From Leptolyngbyaceae cyanobacterium JSC-12 (lineage in GTDB: Bacteria; Cyanobacteriota; Cyanobacteriia; Leptolyngbyales; Leptolyngbyaceae), in the NCBI GenBank assembly GCA_000309945.1, contig CM001633.1:2878199-2942198 (forward strand): a stretch of DNA of 64,000 bases, read 5' to 3'. The position numbers and the translations under genes were made by a program. Below the pieces are notes generated by a model. That model had not been told where the DNA came from, did not search any database, and saw only the letters and a list, made by a program, of their open reading frames with translations. Within the stretch, counting starts at the first letter, position 1, and every line of letters starts with the position of its first letter. Positions 44,881 to 49,238 of this stretch are shown here, piece after piece.

Positions 44881-44904
44881 AACGGGACTGGCGCGATTCA
44901 AACG
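44881..44904 (-). other. Copy of the tRNA-Arg 3' end, candidate attachment site
   Basis: Nineteen bases (AACGGGACTGGCGCGATTC, 44881-44899) match 49163-49181 exactly, followed by one mismatch and four further matches. In the intact gene this is the T-arm and acceptor 3' part plus the adjoining bases. The same orientation as the real tRNA gene makes it a direct repeat that bounds a 4.3-kb segment. Confidence 0.75.
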
Positions 44905-44946
44905 GAGAACATAAGGCAGAAAGCCTTCCTGAAAACAGCTTTAAAG

Positions 44947-45004
44947 GTCCCTCTACCCTTTTTGGGAGAGGGATTTGGGGTAAGGGTCAAAAGTGACATG
45001 CTCC
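44947..45004. repeat. Right half of a second copy of the MITE-type repeat
   Basis: This segment shares with 48630-48694 the hairpin of CCCTCT and GGGAGAGGG type, then ATTTGGGGT, AAGGG and the terminal TGACATGCTCC (44994-45004). The left terminus (GGAGCATGTCA) is not found, so the copy is partial. It lies inside the tRNA-Arg-bounded region. Confidence 0.75.
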
Positions 45005-48049: not shown

Positions 48050-48244
48050 TACTGATACTCTCCGCCTAAAGTGACACGACAACGACTAACTAAGAAAGAA
48101 GAGAGAAGAGAGCAGCATGAAATAAGAATTGAACGGTGCATTTCTTCTGTTTTCTTTCTTCCTTCTTCTTTTTTGTTTTGAGTTGGTAGGATTGAGAGAT
48201 GGAAGGGAAAACTAGGTCAATACCAAAATTCCTTATTTTTTGCT

Positions 48245-48755
48245 GTGACTGATTTGCGCGATCGCACGAAGCAATTCGCCCTACGGATTATCAAGATATA
48301 TGCTGCCTTACCTCCAAAAACCGAGGCGCAAGTGATGGGCAAGCAAGTATTGCGAAGTGGCACTTCAGTTGGTGCACATTACTGCGAAGCAAGTCGTTCA
48401 AGGTCAACAGCAGGGTATATTAGCAAGATCGGTGGAGCGTTACAGGAACTTGAAGAGACGGTATACTGGATTGAACTGCTAGCAGAATCGCAAATTGTCC
48501 CGACTAGCAAATTACAAGGACTGATTCAAGAAGCACAGGAAATAGGAGCATGTCAGTTTTGCAAGTCTCTGCATTTGCCCTCATCCCCCAACCCCTTTCT
48601 CCCAAGTTTGGGAGAAAGGGGAGTCGAAGCTTCAAGTCCCTCTCCCAAATCTGGGAGAGGGATTTAGGGTGAGGGCGCAAAGGTGACATGCTCCCCAGGA
48701 AATCATGGCAATCTTAGGCACAATGCTCAAGAAAGCTAAACAATCAAACCAATAA
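48245..48755 (+). pseudogene. Four-helix-bundle (S23-like) gene split by a MITE
   Basis: GTG start at 48245. The first 100 residues are a four-helix-bundle protein of the 23S intervening-sequence family (RTKQFALRIIKIYAALP, QVLRSGTSVGAHYCEASRS, ISKIGGALQELEETVYWIELL). At QEI the reading enters a repeat element; the present frame ends at 48667 with a proline/glycine-rich tail coded by the element. After the element, 48696-48755 resumes the normal ending (MAILGTMLKKAKQSNQ, then TAA). Removing the element and one copy of the 8-bp duplication gives the usual C-terminus. The present product has a foreign tail in place of the last helix part. Confidence 0.8.
48544..48695. mobile_element. MITE-like element, 152 bp, in the four-helix-bundle gene
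   Basis: The ends are inverted repeats: GGAGCATGTCA at 48545-48555 and TGACATGCTCC at 48684-48694, 11 of 11. Both flanks are CAGGAAAT (48536-48543 and 48696-48703), an 8-bp target duplication. Inside are two back-to-back hairpins: a 14-bp perfect stem (48592-48605 with 48608-48621) and a 10-bp stem (48638-48647 with 48652-48661). No transposase gene is inside, so it must be mobilised in trans. Confidence 0.82.
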
Positions 48756-48763
48756 ATTACTGA

Positions 48764-48883
48764 TTTTCTTTCTTCTCTTTTCTTTCTTCCTTCTTTTCTT
48801 TTCCTTCTTCTCTTTTCTTTCTTCCTTCTTCTTTCTTCTCTTTTCTTTCTTCCTTCTTCTTTCTTCTCTTTTCTTTCTTCCTT
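48764..48883 (+). repeat. Pure pyrimidine tract of 120 nt
   Basis: Every base is C or T on the plus strand. The inner part repeats a period of about 27 with cores like TCTTTCTTCC and TTCTTCTCTTTT. Directly follows the four-helix-bundle gene; a similar but shorter C/T-rich segment precedes that gene at about 48143-48175. Confidence 0.9.
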
Positions 48884-49164
48884 ATTGGTAAAGCTTGGGA
48901 TGAGGATTGCCAGGTTTTGGAGGAGGGGTGGCTTGGAGCCGAAGCATTTCTTCAGGCTGATGGAGGCGAGCTTTCGATTTAGCTATCCTTCAATGCTGGT
49001 CAACTGCCTCAAGCGTGTACTCGAGTCGTTTAACCCCTTGACTTAAACCATTCTTAAAGATGTCCTTAAAAGCTCAGAAAACGTTAACCATTGGCTATTT
49101 CAGAGTATGCCAAGGTCAGCCCTGAAAGGGTTCAACGCCTTGTATATCTTACATTTTAAGACAA

Positions 49165-49238
49165 CGGGACTGGCGCGATTCGAACGCGCGACCTGTCGCT
49201 TAGGAGGCGACCGCTCTATCCTGCTGAGCTACAGCCCC
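49165..49238 (-). tRNA. tRNA-Arg (anticodon CCU)
   Basis: On the minus strand a complete cloverleaf: acceptor GGGGCTG/CAGTCCC (one G-U pair), D-arm TAGCTCAGCAGGATAGAGC, anticodon stem GTCGC/GCGAC with loop CTCCTAA (anticodon CCT, arginine), T-arm GCGCG-TTCGAAT-CGCGC. Discriminator G, CCA not encoded. Its 3' portion is duplicated at 44881-44904. Confidence 0.97.

Follow-up and report, generated by a model that had tools for sequence, protein, structure and literature searches.

The window analysed here, a stretch of 64,000 nucleotides from Leptolyngbyaceae cyanobacterium JSC-12, corresponds to positions 2878199-2942198 of a complete chromosome of 5.53 Mb. It contains a gene for a four-helix protein of the 23S_rRNA_IVP type (PF05635) whose reading frame is interrupted in codon 100 of 116 by a 152-bp MITE (Table 1). 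Since the number of bases gained at this site, 160, is not divisible by 3, the frame is shifted, and the last 16 residues are exchanged for 40 element-coded ones in a predicted protein of 140 residues. An earlier note on this DNA had foreseen such a tail, and also that deletion of the 160 bases would restore the C-terminus: the frame then continues EAQEIMAILGTMLKKAKQSNQ up to a stop, and IVP homologues read EAEELTAILVTCINKAKK uninterrupted. Homologues in G037 (63-66% identical) and G009 pass through the site without the insertion, so that the refuting case named in the note, orthologues containing the same 152 bp, did not arise. No close orthologue of the gene was found in two genomes of the same genus, and no relative of the protein in viral contigs. 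The note's wording that the MITE splits a gene holds in so far as the gene is interrupted, but it is truncated and re-tailed near its end and not split in the middle. With residues 1-100 kept and a new tail near the end, the gene is altered more than split. The Pfam domain score drops only from 67.0 bits for the restored protein to 63.7 bits now, therefore a loss of IVP function is not demonstrated.

The surroundings of the gene contain further repeats. Polypyrimidine repeats (TTTCTTTCTTCCTTC...) flank it at window positions 48140-48175 and 48764-48885. A tRNA gene lies at 49165-49238, and a fragment of its 3' end lies 4.3 kb away, forming a 24-bp direct repeat (23/24; 44881-44904 and 49163-49186). 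These tRNA-end repeats look like att sites that might bound a small island; the putative island between them holds the IVP gene along with others that, judged by eye, are Uma2-like and HicAB-like.

Table 1. Features of the interrupted IVP gene and its MITE (window coordinates)
Feature	Position	Strand
Frame of the IVP gene (23S_rRNA_IVP, PF05635) as it now stands, with 100 native and 40 element-coded residues	48245..48667	+
Left target duplication CAGGAAAT	48536..48543	.
152-bp MITE	48544..48695	+
Left inverted end AGGAGCATGTCA (family consensus GGGAGCATGTCA), continued imperfectly by GTTTTGC as far as 48562	48544..48555	+
Double-hairpin core GCCCTCATCC...GGGTGAGGGC, common to MITEs with other ends	48577..48676	+
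Hairpin 1 CCCCTTTCTCCCAAGTTTGGGAGAAAGGGG	48592..48621	+
Hairpin 2 (TCCCTCTCCCAAATCTGGGAGAGGGA)	48634..48665	+
Right inverted end TGACATGCTCCC, continued imperfectly towards the interior as far as 48677	48684..48695	-
Right target duplication CAGGAAAT	48696..48703	.
Orphaned 3' gene end: native last 16 codons and stop	48704..48755	+
Partial second MITE copy: hairpin 2 and right end only	44937..45004	+

Direct reading of the sequence gives the ends AGGAGCATGTCA...TGACATGCTCCC with CAGGAAAT on both sides, in agreement with the earlier note, which had described a MITE with inverted ends and an 8-bp target duplication. Its arithmetic of 160 bases (152 + 8 = 160) was correct, but the span it gave for the element (48544-48703) is that of the element plus the right duplication. 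The inverted ends are perfect over 11 bp (11/11) in the window copy and over 12 bp (12/12) in several other copies; the 12-bp end consensus of the family is GGGAGCATGTCA, and the window copy has A instead of G as its first base. There are 22 exact 11-bp inverted pairs spaced 60-400 bp in the window, and exact 8-bp flanking direct repeats occur only for the MITE. The inner 100 bp form the two hairpins already recognised in the note, which are near-perfect, with a third stem closing them. Together with the closure by the ends, the fold of a 148-nt strand holding this core was computed at -86.7 kcal/mol (z -9.2). The reading frames of the element are devoid of transposase-like sequence, and an Rfam search returned nothing but the tRNA. 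Hence the element has the features of its class: it is short, has terminal inverted repeats and no transposase gene, occurs in multiple copies with target duplications at independent loci, has an empty site, and has ends in common with autonomous ISs (in other genomes).

The genome-wide search of the ends proposed in the earlier note, for which an absence of other copies would have refuted the MITE, yielded about 16 full copies, most of which share 90-97% identity with the window copy, plus fragments and more diverged relatives. Every copy lies in different flanking sequence. The exact end motif GGAGCATGTCA has 20 occurrences across the 5.53 Mb of the genome and its reversed control has 0, and all 17 exact occurrences of the extended end GGGAGCATGTCANNTTTGC belong to copies of the element. 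Target duplications are exact over 8 bp at nine copies, match at 7/8 at four and measure 9 bp at one; a further copy has an irregular end, and at copy 5023256 no target duplication is recognisable. An empty site, likewise proposed for sister strains, was found for the copy at 5356284, which is missing from the sister genome G002, where a single TTTGGACA is present; site L009 was left out of the query for empty sites. This empty site belongs to another copy and not to the IVP locus, because the sister genomes have no close orthologue of the gene.

Several copies show peculiarities of their own. The copy L043 (921976-923306 of this genome, G000) is interrupted in hairpin 1 by an insertion of about 1.18 kb with an IS110-type (DEDD) transposase containing an internal stop, as judged by eye. 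Two others, L040 (G000 5356284) and L042 (G000 287794), bear in hairpin 1 TTGTATCTTAAAACTAGAGAGA or a similar stretch, which equals the left end of the IS in L043 and looks as though it were the residue of an imprecise IS loss. At L041 (G000 4111872-4112155) two copies form a tandem pair, with GATAACTG between them and after them. By eye, the copies L010 (G000 382621) and L008 (G000 3923067) appear to interrupt small accessory genes, with a Uma2-like and a PIN-domain-like frame, respectively.

The earlier note had also suggested a search for a transposase with the same ends. In this genome there is no match to the ISKra4 transposase at E<=0.001 (NF033572 search), and no autonomous element with the MITE ends within 3 mismatches. 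Such elements do exist in other cyanobacteria: the ISKra4 transposase was matched in 37 of the 58 genomes searched, and ISKra4-family ISs there have GGG(A/T)GCAT..CA ends and 8-9-bp duplications. Those carrying the MITE ends (L154, L158, L161, L163 and L164) are 1.15-1.22 kb long. In L154 from Acaryochloris sp. CRU_2_0 (1217 bp, 8-bp duplication GTATACCC) both ends are identical to the MITE right end over 20/20 positions, and in L163/L164 from Nodosilinea nodulosa PCC 7104 the right end matches at 20/20 and the left at 19/20; L158 has the 8-bp duplication AGAAGCTG. That these ISs encode an ISKra4 transposase is seen from the NF033572 search, from alignment A1 and from their ends. In these ISs ORFB is in the -1 register relative to ORFA, and their overlap contains a slippery T6-T7 run. 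ISMich2 elements in ISfinder start with GGG and make 8-bp duplications. For the ISMich2 group, a two-ORF transposase with a -1 frameshift has been published (Guerillot et al. 2014, PMC3942029).

We consider it very probable that the window element is a non-autonomous MITE which a DDE transposase of the ISKra4 family (ISMich2-like) mobilised in trans; judging from sequence, the ISMich2-like ISs would be the best candidate mobilisers. We infer this movement from other species because neither an ISKra4 transposase nor an autonomous element is present in this genome. Two points speak against such a mobilisation: the duplications of the MITE family are mostly 8 bp long but those of many matching ISs 9 bp, and copy 5023256 lacks a recognisable one. 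After recognition of the GGGAGCATGTCA ends by the transposase, the element would be cut or copied and then joined to staggered target cuts 8 bp apart, with repair leaving the 8-bp duplication. In this way the family would have been amplified to its present size, and the insertion in the IVP gene shifted the frame and replaced its last residues. With the helper transposase gone, the copies can probably move again only after re-entry of an ISKra4 element. The basic interpretation as a MITE, as put forward in the earlier note, is supported by the multiple copies, the 8-bp duplications and the homologous genes without the element. In a different genome (G006, contig 84; L399/L125) an ISKra4 element with a 9-bp duplication lies within an element of the IS5/ISL2 type; a single genome has therefore seen activity of both kinds of transposon.

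The interior of the MITE has a different relationship to these ISs than its ends. A BLAST comparison with nine of them gave no meaningful match; only about 20 bp of each end are alike. An interior consisting of a deleted IS was ruled out, as the match is confined to the ends and the core occurs with other ends. The element would rather be a pair of IS ends wrapped round a re-used double-hairpin core than the remnant of a deleted transposase gene. Sequences resembling the element or its core were present in 49 of the 58 genomes searched. Matches to the core arm number 284 in G039, 270 in G050 and 27 in this genome; these counts are rough, the reversed-pattern control not being independent for an arm that resembles its own mirror image. 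On plasmids, matches to the core at E<=1e-5 are from cyanobacteria only, and those outside cyanobacteria at E<=1 are short and partial. The core had no match in phages or in E. coli.

Among the distinct cores extracted from G006, 12 are bounded on both sides by TAGACCTCTTGC ends and another 12 on a single side at the chosen cut-off; these elements are typically 146 bp long, most with a 3-bp ANT duplication. The same genome contains a 0.9-kb IS (L401) with TAGACCTCTTGC ends and a PF13359 transposase. We take ANT duplications and this transposase to place the TAGACCTCTTGC-end elements in the IS5 family, ISL2 group. Two 168-bp elements in G030 hold the core between GGCGTTGCTGAAT ends, one of them with the 8-bp duplication CAGGTTTT, and on a Kovacikia minuta plasmid it is enclosed by TATTAACCTGGCA ends, the duplication matching at 7/8. 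Less clear is a single copy in this genome (4306011), which has it between GTAACTACTCAG-like ends, again with a 7/8 duplication. From these sequences the double-hairpin core of about 100 bp apparently occurs between at least two further end types besides ISKra4 and IS5/ISL2. The median identity of ISL2-type to ISKra4-type cores is 81.2%, and that among ISKra4-type cores from different genomes is 82.2%; therefore the core is about equally similar across and within end types. The identity to ISKra4-type cores is 82.8% for the Kovacikia core and 77.8% for those of G030. In G052, cores with ISL2-type ends reach a similarity of only about 65%, and we did not treat them as this core. It might be that cyanobacterial MITEs are modular, one core of about 100 bp sitting within the ends of unrelated IS families, at least two in number and probably four or more (ISKra4, IS5/ISL2 and the GGCGTTGCTGAAT and TATTAACCTGGCA types, which are unassigned), so that the core is the conserved, perhaps selected, unit and the ends are interchangeable; our confidence in this wider view is evenly balanced.

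How could one core have come to be shared? As a refinement of mobilisation by an ISKra4-family transposase, it seems fairly probable that an existing copy of the core became enclosed by IS ends of different families, or that MITEs sharing a cell swapped cores through gene conversion or template switching, and that each new combination was then amplified. The near-equal identities across (about 81%) and within (82%) end types are in line with this. Cores also group by genome (50 changes versus a shuffled-label mean of 88), as amplification or homogenisation predicts, but such grouping would follow from simple amplification after a single capture as well, and end types cluster on the tree too (30 changes versus a mean of 59). 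In the sample behind this tree, end type and genome are confounded, and the clustering therefore fits amplification after few captures or homogenisation within genomes. The arms of hairpin 1 co-vary among near-identical G000 copies (A2 alignment): TTCTCCC/GGGAGAA becomes TGCTCCC/GGGAGCA, and the window copy, with TTTCTCCC/GGGAGAAA, has an extra T together with an extra A. This is what template switching between the arms would produce, the independent changes being too few for proof. No intermediate of a capture or exchange was caught. Both the order of events and the mode by which the core was acquired are inferred.

The core could also be a small mobile element itself, with its own ends GCCCTCA...TGAGGGC, that was inserted into MITEs of several IS types. 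Its boundaries are indeed identical in ISKra4-type, ISL2-type and GGCGTTGCTGAAT-type elements, and in 45 of 85 copies, those above the p<=0.02 cut, no inverted ends could be detected on either side of the core. However, direct repeats flanking core-only copies are no more frequent than with shuffled flanks (26 of 37 have none), and the core-less ISL2-type elements of G006 (L314, L323) have a different interior and not the same one minus the core, so that we regard a self-mobile core as rather improbable. An ordinary intergenic hairpin repeat of the REP/BIME kind, without transposition and with a coincidental 8-bp repeat, would account for GC-rich hairpins, many copies and core-only copies, but for the window element it is refuted by the duplications (7-8 matched bases at 13 of about 16 copies) and the empty site, the MITE ends equal those of an IS family, and neither core nor element ends carry a GTAG/CGTC terminal tag on reading the sequence, which makes this explanation scarcely tenable.

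Bacterial MITEs are usually pictured as an IS minus its middle. Here the middle of the MITE is common to elements with different transposases and different target duplications, in many cyanobacterial genomes. As a MITE the window element is ordinary; the unusual part is the re-use of its core between the ends of unrelated transposases. In the open-access literature we found no paper on a link between MITEs and ISKra4 in cyanobacteria, nothing relevant on shared-core or chimeric MITEs, which does not prove absence, and nothing relevant for the letters of the core sequence; priority for the description of a shared core is uncertain. A testable question is whether the hairpin is kept because it assists whichever transposase acts on the element, for instance by drawing the two ends close to each other. 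Alternatively, it might be retained for shielding or tuning the host transcript, or hairpins might merely recombine easily. The MITE and the ISKra4-family ISs provide a transposase-matched MITE/IS pair for transposition tests.

Among known systems, the ISMich2 group of the ISKra4 family (PMC3942029) resembles the MITE in its GGGAGCATGTCA ends, its 8-9-bp duplication and its cyanobacterial hosts. The matching ISs differ in having a two-ORF transposase in the -1 register and a length of about 1.2 kb, in contrast to the about 150 bp of the MITE, which has no transposase gene. For the cyanobacterial Nezha MITEs (Zhou et al. 2008), movement by ISNpu3-like elements has been proposed (PMC3049150). 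Like the MITE here, they are small non-coding inverted-repeat elements supposedly moved in trans. The MITEs of Anabaena sp. 90 make pseudogenes, are folded and have no matching IS in their own genome (PMC3542288). They are, by description, likewise cyanobacterial, folded and without an IS in the own genome; no IS partner was named for them in that paper. The IS5/ISL2-like group of MITEs with TAGACCTCTTGC ends in G006 has nearly the same double-hairpin core as the window MITE but differs from it in its ends, in its 3-bp ANT duplication and in its PF13359 transposase, encoded by the IS in L401.
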